45,949 nucleotides of DNA from Lachnospiraceae bacterium. GTDB taxonomy: Bacteria > Bacillota > Clostridia > Lachnospirales > Lachnospiraceae. The notes under the pieces were generated by a model that did no database searches, was not told where the DNA came from, and saw only the letters and a program-made list of their open reading frames with translations. Each line of letters opens with the position of its first letter. Positions within the stretch are counted from its first letter, which is position 1. Location: positions 1 through 45,949 of the forward strand of contig JAGAMG010000013.1 of NCBI GenBank assembly GCA_017624835.1. The letters run 5' to 3'. A program made the translations under genes and the position numbers. This document shows, in pieces, positions 37,364 through 43,924 of this stretch.

Positions 37364-38726
37364 GGGTCCTCCTATAGGTTACTCTGTCAGCTAAGCACAG
37401 AGGAATCGTAAATATTTTTTCGTCCGCAATTCCACCCTTTGTTTCACCCTTCAACAGATACAGATAATCCAGCTTTCCATCCTCTAACAGTTTCTTACCG
37501 GTCTTGGCTACAGCATCCGTACTTTTGACTTCAATACCGTAATTCTTATAGTCCAGTAGGCTCCTCACATAGAAATCCAATTCACCATTAATTTTCTCAT
37601 AAGAAGCAAACCAAGGCACAATACCGGCAATCTCTCTCGTATTTTCCAGCTTACGATGCAATGACAAATACACAAAATTTTCAGCCAGCAATCCTTTAAT
37701 TACATCATAGGGAGCCCCTGTACCTCTTAAGAAATAATGGGAAACACCCATATCGAGGAAATAATATCTGCTATTTTCCTTAATTTGCATGTAATCACAA
37801 TCCACTGCCTTTGAAGCATAGCCTATAATATGGGACTCCTGTAGCCAACTGATAGCATGATTAATCATCTTCTTAGTCATGCGACCGCTTTCTTCCTGAT
37901 AAGCAATCTTACTCAGTTCAGAGGTTAAGTCACGGACACCTTGTTTCTCTTGTATCATCAACAATGCAATTGCATTAAAAAGCTTCTCAAATAAATTCTT
38001 ATCAATAATATCTTCAAAATATCGCTTAGATTCATCTGCAAAGATGCTCATTAGTTTTTCAATTTTTGCATAACACCTTGATACATCTTTATACTGAGCA
38101 TAGCATACTACAACCGCGGGATATCCACCTATCTTTTGGTAAATCTCATAATATTCCTTCAGCTTTTCATAATCTCCTGCCGGGTTTTTTCCATATAAAT
38201 CTATTGTCTCATACAATTCCCGCTCACCAAACACATCCAGAAACTCATCAAAGGTAAGTGGCTCCATTATTATATGCTCAGTATCTCCTGCAGGCAAAAA
38301 AAACTCTCTCTCAATCAATCTTCCCAAATAACTGCCTGTCACAATCACGTAACATTGAAATTCTCTCGCAAGTGTACGAATCTGATTATACACCGTTGAT
38401 GATTCCTGAATTTCATCAATGATAACTATCGTTTCTTTGTCATCCGTAAATTCTGAATCAAACATTTCTAGGGCTTTCCGTACCGGTTGCCGGGGTCTCG
38501 GTTCCCCCGGATTCCACTCAGATGCTTCAGAAAGGCACCTTAAAAAATCCTCTCCTGACCGCTCTGCCATACTGATATAAACCATCTTCCGAAAGTTTTC
38601 TCTACCGAACTTCTTCAAAATATAGGTTTTACCAACCTGCCTTGCACCTTTTACTTCCAATACTTGACCACTATCTTCTTTTTTCCACTCAAGTAATTTT
38701 TGATATATATTTCTTCTCAGTTCCAT
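37350..38726 (-). CDS. AAA+ ATPase with DUF4143 domain
   Basis: A 458-residue protein. Walker A is GARQVGKT (about 27-34), Walker B IVIIDEIQES (about 100-109), and the sensor region VTGSYLGRL. The C-terminal third has the DUF4143 pattern ending with a PD-(D/E)XK-like strand pair, ELDFYVR..YGIEVKSTDA. This large family is widespread in anaerobes and its function is unknown; archaeal and bacterial relatives are often mobile. The start is the ATG at 38726 with GAGAGGG upstream; a TTG at 38732 is in frame. It has a clear promoter and leads the two esterase genes. Confidence 0.88.
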   Translation of the reverse strand: MELRRNIYQKLLEWKKEDSGQVLEVKGARQVGKTYILKKFGRENFRKMVYISMAERSGEDFLRCLSEASEWNPGEPRPRQPVRKALEMFDSEFTDDKETIVIIDEIQESSTVYNQIRTLAREFQCYVIVTGSYLGRLIEREFFLPAGDTEHIIMEPLTFDEFLDVFGERELYETIDLYGKNPAGDYEKLKEYYEIYQKIGGYPAVVVCYAQYKDVSRCYAKIEKLMSIFADESKRYFEDIIDKNLFEKLFNAIALLMIQEKQGVRDLTSELSKIAYQEESGRMTKKMINHAISWLQESHIIGYASKAVDCDYMQIKENSRYYFLDMGVSHYFLRGTGAPYDVIKGLLAENFVYLSLHRKLENTREIAGIVPWFASYEKINGELDFYVRSLLDYKNYGIEVKSTDAVAKTGKKLLEDGKLDYLYLLKGETKGGIADEKIFTIPLCLADRVTYRRTHGLD

Positions 38727-38812
38727 AAACAACCCTCTCTTTGTCAGGTCTCTTACACCCCAGAAAACATCCCCATAAAATAGTATTCTGCAACAGTATG
38801 TAAATTAATTTT

Positions 38813-38841
38813 ATTATACCCATCTACCTGTTTTTTTACAA
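38813..38841 (-). promoter_or_regulatory. Promoter of the ATPase-esterase operon
   Basis: Leftward TTGTAA (38841-38836), exactly 17 bp, TATAAT (38818-38813), about 87 bp ahead of the ATG. Confidence 0.7.
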
Positions 38842-38868
38842 GAAATATCCCTACTCTTTTTTAGTAGT

Positions 38869-39486
38869 TCAAACGCTCTGCTTTTCAGTTTTTCCCAATT
38901 TCTTCCGCACAAAATCCATGCCTACATAGGTTCTCACCGGATTTCCACGTACAATTCGGTTATGCTCCCGCCATGCCTGATTGGTCTGTCGGCTTTTGGC
39001 ATTTTCCTCCTGCTCCCTTAAAATAGTTGTCAGTTTCTCCATGGCGCGTTGCTTGTTCATGTACTGGCTGCGCTCCTCAGTGGAAGTCACGGCAATTCCA
39101 GTGGGAAGGTGGATGACCCGTACACCGGTCTCCACCTTATTCACATTCTGTCCACCTTTGCCACCACAATGAAATTTCTCAATGCGGTAATCTGCTTCCC
39201 TGTTTACCTCTTCCTTTTCCGGAATCACGCTCACATCCACAAACCAATTCTTCCGTTTATGTTCCGGTCTGAAGGGACTTTTACAAATCCATAGGATTGT
39301 CCCCTCCAAAAATCTCAAATCTTCTCCGGTGGTAAATGATATGGAATCATAGCAACCTTTTCTCCTGCCTGCTTTTGCAGAAAGCTGCTGAATGTCCTGA
39401 AATTCTTTTTGTAATGCCTCAAACAACTTTCCCACTGCCAACTGGCATTCCTCAGGACCTTGCCCTGCACTCAATTGTATTATCAT
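38869..39486 (-). CDS. prfH: PrfH, release-factor-like ribosome rescue protein
   Basis: A 205-residue class I release-factor relative with the peptidyl-hydrolysis motif GGQ (111-113, in HCGGKGGQNVNKVETG) but without a full codon-recognition domain. PrfH recognises ribosomes with a damaged 16S decoding centre and releases the nascent chain, after which RtcB reseals the rRNA. I chose the ATG at 39486, which gives the family N-terminus MIIQLSAGQGPEECQLAV; a GTG at 39513 is in frame. The gene begins 36 bp after the rtcB stop. Confidence 0.9.
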   Translation of the reverse strand: MIIQLSAGQGPEECQLAVGKLFEALQKEFQDIQQLSAKAGRRKGCYDSISFTTGEDLRFLEGTILWICKSPFRPEHKRKNWFVDVSVIPEKEEVNREADYRIEKFHCGGKGGQNVNKVETGVRVIHLPTGIAVTSTEERSQYMNKQRAMEKLTTILREQEENAKSRQTNQAWREHNRIVRGNPVRTYVGMDFVRKKLGKTEKQSV

Positions 39487-39522
39487 AAAATTAGTTTTAC
39501 CTTTCTTTTGCACACAAACTGC

Positions 39523-40674
39523 CTACTCTTTTCCACCTGCCTTAAAATTATAGACAGGCTTTAAAATATCCGTTACTTTTACCGTATCTTCGATGCACTG
39601 AAGCACCTTTTCCATGCTTCGATAAGCAAAAGGCGCTTCATCCAAAGTATCTGCACCGATGCAGCTACAATAAATTCCTTTCATTTCTCGCTTAAAAGAA
39701 GACACTGTATAGAGGTTCTTTACCTCCTCACGCTTTAAGCACCGGCCTGAGCCATGGGGCGCTGAATAGTTCCACTCAGCATTACCTTTACCCACACCAA
39801 GGATAATACCATCCCGCATATTCACAGGGATAATAACAAGTTCTCCCTGCTGTGCAGAAATGGCACCCTTACGAAGTATGTAATCTTTCTCTCCAAGATA
39901 ATTCTGAAATCCATCTTTTGCATCCTGCGCCTCAATATAGTTATGTATCGAAGAAAATCTCTCCACAGCCTTCCATTTCATACCTTTCAGGATTTCCTCC
40001 AGCATAATTTTTCGGTTCAGTGCTGCATATTCCTGCACCACTTGTACATCTTGGATATAGTGCTCCATCAACTCGCCCTCCAGCTAAGTCCAAGGATGAG
40101 GAACTTCAATGCCTTTCGCTTTTAATTCCTTTGCTCCTGCCTCAATATAATATTCGGTCACTTCTTTTCCCAAGTGTCGACTGCCGGAATGTACCATCAG
40201 ATACAGATTTCCTTCTTCATCCTTATCCACTTCAATAAAGTGATTGCCGGAACCCAATGTACCCAAACTCCGGTAACTCTTGTCTCCATTGATATGTTTG
40301 GCACAGTACAAATCAGAAAATTCAAAGAAATCTGCCATCCAATGTCCGGTATCCCTGATTACAAAACCGGATGGAATCCTCTCTCTGATAACCTTATCCA
40401 TCTGCTGTGGTTCAAATCGCTTTTCCTTGATAACCACACAGCTTACACCACAGCCAATATCAATTCCAAGGAGGTTAGGTACAATCCGCTCTCCCACTGT
40501 CATAGTCAATCCAATCGTTCCAACCATTCCCGGATGTACGTCGGGCATTACTTTGATTTTGCTTCCCTCAGCCACCGGATTATCACAAATCATTTGTATC
40601 TGTGCCAGCGCATGCTGTTCCACATCATCGGTAAATATTTTTGCTTCTGTATATTGTCCTGTTACAATTTTCAT
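39523..40674 (-). pseudogene. rtcB: RNA ligase RtcB (RtcB2-type) interrupted by one in-frame amber codon
   Basis: Joins RNA 2',3'-cyclic phosphate ends to 5'-OH using GTP and Mn2+. Codons 1-196 (40674-40087) carry the first metal-site residues (Asp72 and Cys75 in GIDIGCGVSC, His145 in LGSGNHF, His162 in HSGSRHLG). Codon 197 is TAG (40086-40084). In the same frame the family sequence resumes at once (LEGELMEHY) and contains a further metal His244 (SIHNY) and the guanylylated His307 (APHGSGR). The total of 383 positions is normal length, so this is a point nonsense change and not a frameshift. TAG ends uvrA, ftsE and others here, so it is a real stop. GGAGGG at 40081-40076 followed by ATG at 40068 could restart translation and make a split enzyme. 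Confidence 0.85.
40068..40086 (-). promoter_or_regulatory. Stop codon plus internal ribosome binding site inside rtcB
   Basis: TAG at 40086-40084 is followed by GGAGGG (40081-40076) and, 7 bases on, ATG (preceded by TTG in frame). This is ideal spacing for reinitiation of a 181-residue C-terminal half. The SD is a by-product of the conserved Leu-Glu-Gly-Glu codons, so its use is uncertain. Confidence 0.5.
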
Positions 40675-40702
40675 ATACTTTCTTCTCCTATTTTTGCGCA
40701 CG

Positions 40703-40734
40703 AAAAAAGACACCCAGGCAAAGCAAAGGTGTCC
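40703..40734 (-). terminator. Intrinsic terminator directly upstream of rtcB
   Basis: GACACC/GGTGTC arms (40709-40714 and 40729-40734) followed on the minus strand by six T (40708-40703). The rtcB SD begins only about 15 bases later, so this sits in the leader of the rtcB transcript and suggests attenuation. Confidence 0.75.
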
Positions 40735-40777
40735 ACTCAAGTCATGTATTCTCTGAATAACTATGTCGGTATGCTAA

Positions 40778-40864
40778 TTAAACAGATCGTAAAGAAAAGA
40801 GTTGATTGTGCCTGTCTGTTATTTTGTTACTTATGAAATTATCTGCTTTACTTCTGTACGTCAC
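40778..40864 (-). CDS. Candidate 28-residue leader peptide of the rtcB-prfH operon
   Basis: A GTG start (40864) with AAAGGAGG 8 bases upstream opens a short frame, MTYRSKADNFISN..FSLRSV, ending TAA at 40778. It lies about 38 bp after a predicted transcription start and about 44 bp before the terminator hairpin. The peptide is basic and matches nothing I know. Segments at its start (GTAAAG) and end (CTTTAC) are complementary and so are AACAGA and TCTGTT within it, so ribosome position could alter folding. Existence as a translated peptide is inferred from the SD and placement only. Confidence 0.4.
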   Translation of the reverse strand: MTYRSKADNFISNKITDRHNQLFSLRSV

Positions 40865-40908
40865 GGCAATCGCCTCCTTTCCAAATATTTTGCATTAAAA
40901 TTTTGATT

Positions 40909-40937
40909 ATAATAACATGAATCTTGATGTGGTGCAA
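40909..40937 (-). promoter_or_regulatory. Promoter of the rtcB-prfH operon leader
   Basis: Leftward TTGCAC (40937-40932), 17 bp, TATTAT (40914-40909). It places the start of transcription near 40902, ahead of the leader ORF. Confidence 0.55.
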
Positions 40938-40998
40938 CACCTTTTTCATTATTGCAAACCAAATCCTTATGACGCTAAGTATATTTCCCTCTGCATAT

Positions 40999-41175
40999 TT
41001 ACTGAATAAACAGCTTCTTCTCTTCCTCTGTCAGTTCAATAACCTTCTTACCATTACGCTTTGCATATTCCATCAACCCACGCAAATCCAGCTTTATCTG
41101 AGGACACTGACTAAGCATAATGGGTTCCGGCATCATTGCCAGACTTTCTCTATATCTCTTCATCTGTCCATTCAT
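40999..41175 (-). CDS. Small protein paired with the GNAT-like gene
   Basis: A 58-residue acidic/basic mixed protein (MNGQMKRYRESLAMMPEP..KLDLRGLMEYAKRNGKKV..). I chose the ATG at 41175, which has GGAGG 9 bases upstream; an ATG 4 codons later is possible. It overlaps the upstream gene by 26 bp in another frame, so the two are co-translated. No family is certain. A small stable partner overlapping an acetyltransferase-like gene could be an antitoxin or an accessory subunit. Confidence 0.6.
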   Translation of the reverse strand: MNGQMKRYRESLAMMPEPIMLSQCPQIKLDLRGLMEYAKRNGKKVIELTEEEKKLFIQ

Positions 41176-41695
41176 AGTCATACACCTCCATAATCTTTCT
41201 TGCGCCATCCTCATCAATTGCAAATTGATGAGGATGTAATACAGCAATTACTTCTCCATTAAATACGTCAACATAATGCTCCAACAGTTTCTGATTTGCC
41301 GCAAAACCATACATGTATCCATCATAACCGAAATCAATAGATTTCTTTGCCGCAATAGCAAACAAATGCCCACCAACACCTAAATATCTTACATCGTCTG
41401 TGATCTGTTTATTATTCTCCGGGCTAGTACACATCCAGCTGATATATACTGCTTTCATGTCTTCATTCTTGGCAACCGCTATCAACCCTTGTATGTCTAC
41501 CGACCCTTCTACTACCAAAGCATATATTTCATTCTCATCAGCCAACTTTTCCCAATTGGTATACCAACCATTTTTCTTATTATATTTTTTCAAAAATGAT
41601 TTTCTTCTGACACGAATTACCTCTGTCTGTACAAGTTCACCTGTACAAGCATCCTTTAGACAAGGCGTAAATTCATCAATAATGATATTAATCAT
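41150..41695 (-). CDS. GNAT-like acetyltransferase, putative
   Basis: A 181-residue protein with the alternation expected of a GNAT fold: ALVVEGSVDIQGLIAVAKN (beta strands), AVYISWMCTSPENNK (beta-4), GVGGHLFAIAAKKSIDFGYDG (glycine-rich acyl-CoA loop and helix) and FAANQKLLEHYVDVFNGEVI. The substrate is unknown. A TATAAT lies at 41723-41718 upstream. It overlaps the small downstream gene. It could equally be a stand-alone modifying enzyme or the toxin half of a GNAT toxin-antitoxin pair; the gene order here (enzyme first) differs from TacAT-type systems, in which the antitoxin comes first. Confidence 0.6.
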   Translation of the reverse strand: MINIIIDEFTPCLKDACTGELVQTEVIRVRRKSFLKKYNKKNGWYTNWEKLADENEIYALVVEGSVDIQGLIAVAKNEDMKAVYISWMCTSPENNKQITDDVRYLGVGGHLFAIAAKKSIDFGYDGYMYGFAANQKLLEHYVDVFNGEVIAVLHPHQFAIDEDGARKIMEVYDYEWTDEEI

Positions 41696-41792
41696 CTAAT
41701 CACCATTCCTTTGTAATATTATAGCATTTTTTCCTCTTATATACTATAAATTGCGCATAAATTGTTTCTAATTTTACAATTTCGCAAACCTA

Positions 41793-41820
41793 AAGCATTC
41801 TCTCTACAAAAAGAATGCTT
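41793..41820. terminator. Hairpin upstream of the GNAT-like gene
   Basis: AAGCATTCT (41793-41801) pairs with AGAATGCTT (41812-41820), with short T-rich flanks on either strand. It lies within the gap 41700-41970 that holds no gene. Confidence 0.5.
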
Positions 41821-41869
41821 TTCTTGAACATGGGATACACCCCGAACATTTCCAGCCTATTCCCAGGCA

Positions 41870-41906
41870 ACAAAAAAACCTCCAAGGATTTCTCCTTAGA
41901 GGTTTC
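41870..41906 (-). terminator. Second terminator downstream of tRNA-Gln
   Basis: AAACCTCCAAGGA (41876-41888) pairs with TCCTTAGAGGTTT (41893-41905) with one mismatch. A run of T follows on the minus strand (A run at 41872-41878). Confidence 0.7.
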
Positions 41907-41936
41907 TTAGCAGCGCAAGCGCAGTTTTCTCAAAAC

Positions 41937-41968
41937 AAAAACTCGCAAGCATAGGCTTACGAGTTTTT
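41937..41968 (-). terminator. Terminator of tRNA-Gln
   Basis: AAAAACTCGCAAGC (41937-41950) pairs with GCTTACGAGTTTTT (41955-41968) with one mismatch and a 4-base loop, five bases after the tRNA 3' end. Confidence 0.8.
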
Positions 41969-41973
41969 GAAAA

Positions 41974-42045
41974 CAGCGCTACAAGGATTCGAACCTTGAA
42001 ATGACGGAGTCAGAGTCCGTTGCCTTACCGTTTGGCGATAGCGCT
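41974..42045 (-). tRNA. tRNA-Gln (anticodon CUG)
   Basis: A 72-base cloverleaf: acceptor AGCGCTA/TAGCGCT with discriminator G, D-arm GCC/GGC, anticodon stem ACGGA/TCCGT with loop CTCTGAC (anticodon CUG, reading CAG), and T-arm CAAGG/CCTTG with loop TTCGAAT. The short variable loop and U-poor acceptor fit Gln. CCA is not encoded. It stands alone with its own promoter and terminators. Confidence 0.95.
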
Positions 42046-42064
42046 ATTTCGTATTACTTGATAA

Positions 42065-42093
42065 AGTATACACGATGTTTTTCCATTTTGCAA
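42065..42093 (-). promoter_or_regulatory. Promoter of tRNA-Gln
   Basis: Leftward TTGCAA (42093-42088), 17 bp, TATACT (42070-42065), ending about 20 bp before the mature 5' end. Confidence 0.7.
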
Positions 42094-42142
42094 TACCTAA
42101 ATTTAATTTTTTTTATTTTTTTTGCAAAAATTTCTACAATAG

Positions 42143-43924
42143 CTACTTTTTATAAATTGTAAGATAGGGATATTCCACAATTTCGGTTGCCTGAAACTCA
42201 TTTCCCAGCCATTGCATGATAAAGCTGTCCGGCTCCGCTACCGTTATTTCTCCATACATGCTTTCCACAGCCACTACATCGGGATAGCGGTCAGGATTCA
42301 GTTCCCAATATGCAAGCATGCTTTCATTATAACTGGGGGTACTAATCGTACTGGGAATGGCTACCACACAATCTCCCATCATATAAGAATATTGAGAGGC
42401 TCCCACATACAAAAGCTTGCTGCCCACAGGCACCATTTCTTCCCAGCTTTCCTGATTTACATTATATCGATAGGATGTCATGTAATTGGTCAGGATTCCT
42501 GCACGGACACCTGTCCGATTAATTCCGCGCACCTCCAGAATGTTACTGCTCATGGAATCTCCACCTATCATACGATAAGAATACCCAAAAACATTGCAAA
42601 TTATTACTACAAATAATAATCTCCAGATTAATCTTTGTCCCTGCACACCTAATTTTTCGGTAAAATAAGTGTTCCAACACCAAAAACCGCCCAGCACTGC
42701 AACCGTCAAATACACATGCAGACTGCTAAGTCCCCAATTAGACAATAATGCCACTGCCAAATATGCGCAAAAGGTAAGACCTATCATAAAAATTGCCGGA
42801 CTATCCTTTTTCTGATTCTGTTTGTAGCAATACATTCCCAACACAGGAATAAAGAAATAATTGATTTGAGGACATACTACCGCATCTCCCCCCAAGCACC
42901 AATAGCCCACCTGGAATGTAGCCTGTGCAATAACAAACCAAAAAAACAGCAGGGGCACAAATGCAGTGACACAGCCCTGTTTTTTTACAGTTACATAATT
43001 AAATGCGGCACAGCCCGCTGCAAAAAGACCGCCCACCGCCAAATGCACAATGATGGTTTCCAAATCCTGCCCCCATCCGAGAAGCTTTTCAGACCATCCC
43101 ACCTGATGGGAACCATCTCCCAGAATATATGGAATCACCTGTATTATCCGGTCAATTGACATATAAGAAAGTAAATATCCTACAAACAAAAGTGCCCCCA
43201 GCACGCAGGGTAGCACAAAACACCCACAGGCCTTAAGTGCTTCTGCCTTATTCTTTACAGCCTTAGCATTTGCCGCAGCATCCTCCTTTGCAGCATTACG
43301 TTCCGCAGCTACAGAGTACCATATAATGACACCTATACAAACAGGAAACAACAATGCCATACTGGGATATGCCAACACATCGCAAGTCAAAAATAATCCC
43401 GCCAAAGTTAACATCCATAACTTACCCTTTAAAGGAGAATTTTCACAAAAATACCACAAAAGACACAATATCAGCCCCAGCGTAAACCATACCTGTAAAT
43501 TAGAATACTCCGGTATATAAATACATTTGGGGGAGGATACATAAAAAAATCCCACCATTAACGCTGCTGTAATATTACCAATTTGAGGTGCACAAACCAC
43601 CACTGTCCGATATATCCAATAAGCCAGCAAGCCATGAACAGCAAAAAAACAAATTCTAAGATAGATATTTAAAAAATCCACCTGTCCGCCGGTTATCCAC
43701 AAAAAGGGCTTGATAAACAATGCCGTAAAAATGGCTGAAGTCTGATGAGGCTCCCACATTTCCAACAGAAGTCTATCCCCCTGTGCCAGACGGTAGCCTA
43801 CCATAATCCCATAGCCTTCATCCACATCTGCCCCCACAAATATATTTTTTACAGTGTATCCGATTAATGCCAAAACCAAAAACCAAAACCACTTCTTCTG
43901 CTTTGCCTGCAAATACTTCCTCAT
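42143..43924 (-). CDS. GT-C-like polytopic membrane protein, tandem copy B
   Basis: A 593-residue protein with about 11-12 TM segments and a C-terminal soluble domain. After TM1 the extracytoplasmic loop has GADVDEGYGIMVGYRL..LLEMWEPHQTS, an acidic pair placed like the catalytic residues of GT-C enzymes. Near the end, NPDRYPDVVAVESMYG and PSTISTPSYNESMLAYWEL are shared with the upstream copy. The substrate is unknown. Between TM segments it has a charged, Ala/Lys-rich cytoplasmic insert (AAERNAAKEDAAANAKAVKN, about 208-227) that copy A lacks. It is 22 bp behind copy A in the same transcript. Confidence 0.75.
   Translation of the reverse strand: MRKYLQAKQKKWFWFLVLALIGYTVKNIFVGADVDEGYGIMVGYRLAQGDRLLLEMWEPHQTSAIFTALFIKPFLWITGGQVDFLNIYLRICFFAVHGLLAYWIYRTVVVCAPQIGNITAALMVGFFYVSSPKCIYIPEYSNLQVWFTLGLILCLLWYFCENSPLKGKLWMLTLAGLFLTCDVLAYPSMALLFPVCIGVIIWYSVAAERNAAKEDAAANAKAVKNKAEALKACGCFVLPCVLGALLFVGYLLSYMSIDRIIQVIPYILGDGSHQVGWSEKLLGWGQDLETIIVHLAVGGLFAAGCAAFNYVTVKKQGCVTAFVPLLFFWFVIAQATFQVGYWCLGGDAVVCPQINYFFIPVLGMYCYKQNQKKDSPAIFMIGLTFCAYLAVALLSNWGLSSLHVYLTVAVLGGFWCWNTYFTEKLGVQGQRLIWRLLFVVIICNVFGYSYRMIGGDSMSSNILEVRGINRTGVRAGILTNYMTSYRYNVNQESWEEMVPVGSKLLYVGASQYSYMMGDCVVAIPSTISTPSYNESMLAYWELNPDRYPDVVAVESMYGEITVAEPDSFIMQWLGNEFQATEIVEYPYLTIYKK

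Follow-up and report, generated by a model that had tools for sequence, protein, structure and literature searches.

RtcR is an activator that works in trans. Its control of the rtcBA operon reportedly has damaged tRNA as the signal (Hughes 2020). In that case an RNA-repair operon is induced by damage to the translation machinery, whereas for the locus described here we propose a leader acting in cis. Attenuation of ermC, a second point of comparison, works via 1:2/3:4/2:3 pairing. A described system close to our operon is the RtcB2-PrfH pair of Escherichia coli ATCC25922, which protects against colicin E3, a cutter of the 16S rRNA decoding center (PMC9223846). In E. coli K-12, prfH has been called a pseudogene, and nonsense mutations and deletions in the prfH operon have already been shown (Baranov 2006; PMC1586002). 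Two described leaders are also relevant. The vmlR leader of Bacillus subtilis has an upstream open reading frame (uORF), alternative RNA structures, and an intrinsic terminator, and it responds to stalled ribosomes (PMC9226507); in Listeria, rli80-hflXr places a protein of the ribosome-rescue type under a leader-ORF transcription attenuator (PMC6310831). The words "leader" and "attenuat" are absent from the main texts of both PMC9223846 and PMC1586002, and "terminator" is absent from the main text of the former. Among open-licence papers, most of which were judged from listings, we found no description of the rtcB2 leader reported here or of RtcB2-PrfH induction.

We analyzed a 45,949-base stretch of DNA from a Lachnospiraceae bacterium (the window), which is an entire contig of a 2.93-Mb genome that is in 55 contigs and 84.8% complete. 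The features of the operon are as follows.

40674..39523, minus strand: rtcB2 (RtcB RNA ligase), 383 codons including one in-frame TAG, plus a final stop that is also TAG.
40084..40086, minus strand: the in-frame TAG, codon 197 of rtcB2, read from the sequence.
40066..40083, minus strand: restart-like site, GGAGGG followed by 7 nt and an ATG; it lies in the 18 bases after the stop, CTGGAGGGCGAGTTGATG.
38869..39486, minus strand: prfH, intact, with an RF-1 domain (PF00472) and a GGQ motif; likely start at the ATG at 39486.

The gene pair is the same as that of E. coli ATCC25922, with the difference that rtcB2 is interrupted here (PMC9223846). An rtcB-like gene lies directly upstream of prfH on the same strand, which is the gene order of the RtcB2-PrfH module; the initial annotation had named this module correctly. 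The operon is such a module, with predicted roles in 16S rRNA repair and ribosome rescue. We placed the prfH start at 39486 rather than at an alternative in-frame GTG at 39513 because the alignment with most relatives begins at about residue 10. A tRNA-Gln (CTG) gene at 41973-42046, ~1.3 kb upstream of rtcB2, may mark a site at which the operon region integrated.

The rtcB2 gene is the only RtcB match in this 84.8% complete genome. Its translation reads MKIVTGQYTE...VPHPWT*LEGELMEHY...FKAGGKE*, and the frame is open over all 383 codons save the one TAG, with the two halves in the same frame. Read across the stop, it matches the RtcB RNA ligase model PF01139 with 190.8 bits (cut-off, 27). Counted on the translation, D72, C75, H145, and H162 precede the stop, and H244 and H307 come after it. 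We take these six residues to be the metal-site and guanylylated (catalytic) residues. An RtcB would hold them in one chain; here, all six are coded, and the TAG falls between the fourth and the fifth. The single in-frame TAG, the distribution of these residues around it, and the GGAGGG with a 7-base spacing to an ATG within 18 bases of the stop were all as the initial annotation had described them.

We aligned the window's rtcB2, its stop written as X, with 80 loci retained out of 314 confirmed relatives. The nearest of these are named Lachnospiraceae and other Clostridia, with a few such as Selenomonas and Phascolarctobacterium. None of the 80 has a stop in the codon-197 column, where we found Y in 35, C in 28, W in 12, S in 3, and V and F in 1 each. 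The suggestion that the TAG arose from a Tyr or Trp codon is thus plausible as to an aromatic origin; cysteine, however, is also common in this column. One relative included among the 80 (L141) has a stop elsewhere in rtcB, a single in-frame TGA. A restart-like site under a strict definition (GGAGG, AGGAG, or GAGGG, 4-10 nt, and ATG in the same 40 nt) occurs in 18 of the 80 relatives, none of which is stopped here, and 50 of 80 have a looser version of it. The site is not special; we attribute it to the codons of a conserved L-E-G-x-x-M.

The part of rtcB2 after the stop has a mean identity of 61.3% to 76 other sequences, as against 59.7-60.1% in four sisters without the stop. The corresponding values before the stop are 54.4%, as against 57.2-58.1% in the four nearest sisters. 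Among 97 near-invariant columns the window differs at 3, all before the stop. Conservation past the stop thus equals that in the four nearest sisters, which means that the lesion is either young or not real, and we rejected a long-decaying pseudogene. Damage to this operon is common to our loci and to the disrupted RFH operons described earlier (Baranov 2006; PMC1586002): a prfH match was obtained in 45 loci, and in 4 of them (L068, L084, L093, and L131) the gene is damaged.

We surveyed 666 kb of the genome (620 kb of sampled sequence in addition to the window) for genes interrupted by one stop. From the single-stop scans, we listed the best 25 of 189 and the best 45 of 1943 candidates, and eight were checked against protein families in addition to rtcB2. 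At least two in-frame ambers were confirmed in the sampled sequence, those of rtcB2 and glgD. The glgD gene has one in-frame TAG (L205 17113-17115; contig C20 of genome G000), and the pieces before and after it match GlgD positions 3-263 and 269-367, respectively. We searched 41 genomes, this one and 40 relatives, of which 39 had a glgD match; none of the 38 other matching genomes has any stop within glgD. Four other candidates look like neighboring genes (Flg_hook/FlhB-like, DUF4956/UvrC, DctP/DctQ, and kinase/sigma factor), and two had a family match on one side only (L208, PMT_2; and L223, EPSP synthase, which is complete before the stop). A further candidate, a single TAG, lies within continuous coding sequence on the minus strand of the same genome (L214, ~6707), with no Pfam match on either side.

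Three readings of the rtcB2 amber have to be weighed. If a UAG-reading tRNA inserted a residue, full-length RtcB2 (and GlgD) would be made. The second amber in a conserved gene and the good conservation of the remainder of rtcB2 speak for such read-through, and the fact that both confirmed interruptions are TAG mildly favors it; two cases, however, say little on codon choice, and they fit errors or sporadic alleles as well as they would fit read-through. The genome encodes RF1, with a match above the curated cut-off, and TAG serves as an ordinary stop, ending 91 of 362 sampled ORFs of ≥250 amino acids, 8 of the 37 window ORFs of ≥100 codons, and rtcB2 itself; we therefore rejected reassignment of the codon. 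Pyrrolysine coding was rejected because no PylS was found above cut-off in the 84.8% complete genome, where two weak matches fell far below it. The tRNA genes around 30 Rfam matches included none with a CTA anticodon, although this incomplete set also lacks any gene for Tyr, Phe, Ile, Ala, or Asp tRNA, which leaves room for read-through. Weighing these points, we consider read-through quite unlikely. We rejected programmed recoding, since all 80 relatives are free of a stop at this position.

The initial annotation had also suggested a two-chain RtcB, in which translation would restart at the ATG past the stop and the two parts would assemble. The nearness of GGAGGG and ATG to the stop and the conservation of both halves are what this would predict, but the same site is present in uninterrupted genes, on which ground we reject split-gene restart, and no relative is split here. 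The metal-site residues would be divided four and two between the parts, so that the C-terminal part would lack four of the six. One amber found in a single MAG, together with another in glgD, does not amount to evidence that the ligase is split, and we regard a two-chain enzyme as very improbable. The remaining suggestions, a ligase just lost with PrfH kept or an error in the sequence, fit best. We conclude that the TAG is probably a sporadic nonsense allele of rtcB2 or an assembly consensus error and not programmed, in an operon that lies behind a conserved leader, a putative attenuator; this joint explanation is the best that we have. If real, the TAG would remove the rRNA ligase while PrfH would still be coded.

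The initial annotation gave no account of the leader element upstream of rtcB. In the window, it consists of the following parts.

40778..40864, minus strand: leader ORF with a GTG start, 28 codons plus stop (VTYRSKADNFISNKITDRHNQLFSLRSV), from the sequence and the leader survey.
40873..40880, minus strand: Shine-Dalgarno sequence of the leader, AAAGGAGG, which is arm 1, from the sequence and the pairing prediction.
40792..40816, minus strand: arm 2, the predicted pairing partner of arm 1, in the 3' part of the leader ORF.
40708..40734, minus strand: hairpin like that of an intrinsic terminator, GGACACC...GGGTGTC plus a T run, immediately ahead of the rtcB2 ribosome-binding site.

We surveyed 81 loci (80 rtcB relatives and the window) for such leaders. 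An ORF led by a Shine-Dalgarno sequence, with a start and 18-34 codons, lies ≤420 nt upstream of rtcB in 50 of 81 loci, whereas dinucleotide shuffles gave 1.05 of 81 on average. The definition was also satisfied by 5 of 187 further genes in these loci that have free space upstream, and one of the five is the AAA gene of L067. With the search extended to 700 nt (1000 nt for the window), leader ORFs were found in 64 of 81 loci, with lengths of 20-31 codons. Several groups can be told apart by their peptides, among them MQKN..., MTSTIE...RAGSASVA, ...KGTWDLLSVGL, and ...IEAVVVL. Of the 17 loci with no leader, two are at contig ends (L110 and L121) and several have another gene directly upstream of rtcB; in L102 and L131, the covariance model described below later found a leader.

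Pairing of the Shine-Dalgarno sequence with the end of the leader ORF recurs across these loci. The arm 1:2 pairing was significant against shuffles (P < 0.05) in 56 of 64 leaders, with a mean z of -3.5, and the median distance from the end of arm 2 to the leader stop is 3.5 nt. Scored from the end of the Shine-Dalgarno core on, arm 1 paired with its own arm 2 at -11.3 kcal/mol on average and with swapped arms at -7.5 kcal/mol. The pairing of a leader's own arms beat 90% of the swapped pairings in 36 of 64 cases (Wilcoxon P = 1.5e-11, a value that is too small since the loci are related). A strict filter, which does not pick up the hairpin of the window, placed a terminator after the leader in 33 of 64 loci (1.8 in shuffles) and none in the other 31. 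Downstream pairing of arms 2 and 3 reached P < 0.05 in 34 of 64 leaders and was not significant in 30. In loci L065 and L066, there is an extra hairpin-rich, repeat-like sequence between the leader terminator and rtcB.

Within leader groups, covariation is weak, and it is of little help because the arms hardly vary. In group A2, 89.7% of cells were paired, as against 37-63% when the arms were slid, and 2 of 9 pairs had double changes; 31 of 500 letter shuffles reached the same share. Group A4 had 100% of cells paired, without double changes, and there the rtcB Shine-Dalgarno sequence lies inside an invariant hairpin. The figure for group A5 was 96.4% (12 of 500 shuffles), and its alternative 2:3 helices were 100% paired, with letters that hardly vary and no informative change. 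We rejected a known RNA family: a search of window positions 38700-42300 against Rfam 15 at E ≤ 5 left the leader without a match, and the 14 loci scanned gave one tRNA and nothing else at gathering score.

For the window itself, the predicted pairings offer weaker support for a leader switch. Its arm 1:2 pairing has a predicted energy of -19.3 kcal/mol, for which comparison with shuffles gave a P value of 0.015 and a z of -3.4, and its arm 2:3 pairing has a P value of 0.09. Pairing of the window's variable arm is weaker within its own leader (-7.5 kcal/mol) than with the leaders of others (-10.9 kcal/mol), as is also the case in L075, L132, and L134. The hairpin at 40708..40734 was seen by looser filters and missed by both the standard scan and the stricter filter. 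A TATAAT-like hexamer upstream of rtcB2 was noted by eye and missed by the scan.

A search of 391 genomes of the class gave PrfH in 8 (E ≤ 1e-30), one of which is the window's genome. Five of the seven other PrfH loci (L151 and L154-L157) have a different leader of 11-14 codons (for example, MTTIIYEVFSL and MLVTNYEVNDN), in which Shine-Dalgarno pairing is not significant and after which terminator-like hairpins were read by eye. A leader of the KGT type precedes the operon in L152 and, by eye, in L153. We take this wider occurrence of leader ORFs before rtcB2, in more than one architecture, as support for regulation by translation.

We built a covariance model, R1, from one leader group (28 leaders of A2) and searched 299 genomes of the window's family with it. 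At E ≤ 0.01 it gave 42 matches, spread over 37 genomes. The 10 matches below E = 1e-6 all precede either rtcB (7 matches) or a pair of genes for a MoxR-like AAA ATPase and a DUF2201-like protein (3 matches). Because R1 was trained on leaders of rtcB loci, the association with rtcB is partly by construction; that with the AAA pair is not. Of the 32 weaker matches, 21 were inspected: 3 precede rtcB (L176 and L183) or the AAA pair (L193), and 18 precede neither. By reading, most matches above E = 1e-6 appear to be ordinary gene starts, and we rejected them. R1 gave no match to the window's own leader at E ≤ 1; it finds the leader of the window's sister, L063, with an E value of 8.8e-6.

In L063, the proteins of the pair match AAA_5 above cut-off and bpMoxR just below it, and a DUF2201_N metallopeptidase and a VWA-like DUF2201 domain above cut-off; the names in other loci rest on similarity to this pair. 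One genome, G713, has the leader at both its rtcB and its AAA genes. The pair shares a leader with rtcB2 or adjoins rtcB2 in L166, L167, L173, and L193 and in L063, L078, and L067; it lies directly after rtcB in L063 and L078 and directly before rtcB-prfH in L067. In addition, many rtcB loci of the MITIYGKYTN type encode a conserved Cys-rich protein of ~60 amino acids (MKDRxxPCIYYVCKxADCKKGFVKVDLKKCKNCPKY...) between the leader and rtcB, among them L094, L105, L115, L116, L120, L128, and L142. The one such protein that we compared with Pfam had no match.

The leader ORF, the predicted 1:2 pairing, the terminators, and the association with particular genes can all be read from the sequences of these loci. 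They include the parts by which leader-ORF attenuators are recognized, namely, a short ORF with its own Shine-Dalgarno sequence and a terminator or a hairpin sequestering a Shine-Dalgarno sequence. From them, we infer that the element, which is conserved and apparently undescribed, would be a leader-ribosome attenuator of ribosome repair, as well as how it would switch, to what signal, and in which direction. With no ribosome on the leader, the 1:2 helix and the terminator (in one group, the hairpin over the rtcB Shine-Dalgarno sequence) would form, and the genes would be off. A healthy ribosome would cross arm 2 to the leader stop and depart, with the same outcome. A ribosome that initiates without elongating, such as one cut in the decoding center, would stay on arm 1; arm 2 would then be free to pair with arm 3, and the repair genes would be on.

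By analogy, this would work like the vmlR, hflXr, and ermC leaders, with differences from each. The vmlR leader controls an ABC-F resistance factor, whereas here the controlled genes serve rRNA repair and rescue, and the proposed arm of the switch is the Shine-Dalgarno sequence of the leader itself (PMC9226507). The rli80-hflXr leader encodes a 14-amino-acid peptide with the RLR motif of macrolide leaders, whereas we found no motif common to our leader groups (PMC6310831). Translation attenuation of ermC likewise switches the availability of a ribosome-binding site, as the group A4 hairpin may do here, but the signal and the sequence differ (PMC6310831).

The leader ORF could instead encode a working microprotein or be an attenuator specific for an amino acid, with the Shine-Dalgarno pairing being incidental. 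Some constraint on the peptide is possible, since 24 of 28 leaders of group A2 share one reading frame for the arm. In the other 4 of 28, however, it is read in another frame, and RNA rather than peptide is therefore kept there. Furthermore, the peptides differ between groups while the Shine-Dalgarno pairing persists, and we saw no run of a single codon on reading the listed peptides. We think a microprotein or an amino-acid-specific attenuator unlikely. We give somewhat under even odds to a leader that serves as a sensor in cis of ribosomes cut in the decoding center and switches on the genes for their rescue and repair, in a regulon that would include the uncharacterized AAA/DUF2201 pair and probably the Cys-rich protein.

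If the leader is such a sensor, the damaged ribosome itself would be the signal, and the leader's own Shine-Dalgarno sequence would be the sensing arm. Leader-ORF attenuation would then extend from antibiotic resistance to rRNA repair, and the AAA/DUF2201 metallopeptidase-VWA pair and the small Cys-rich protein would belong to ribosome repair.
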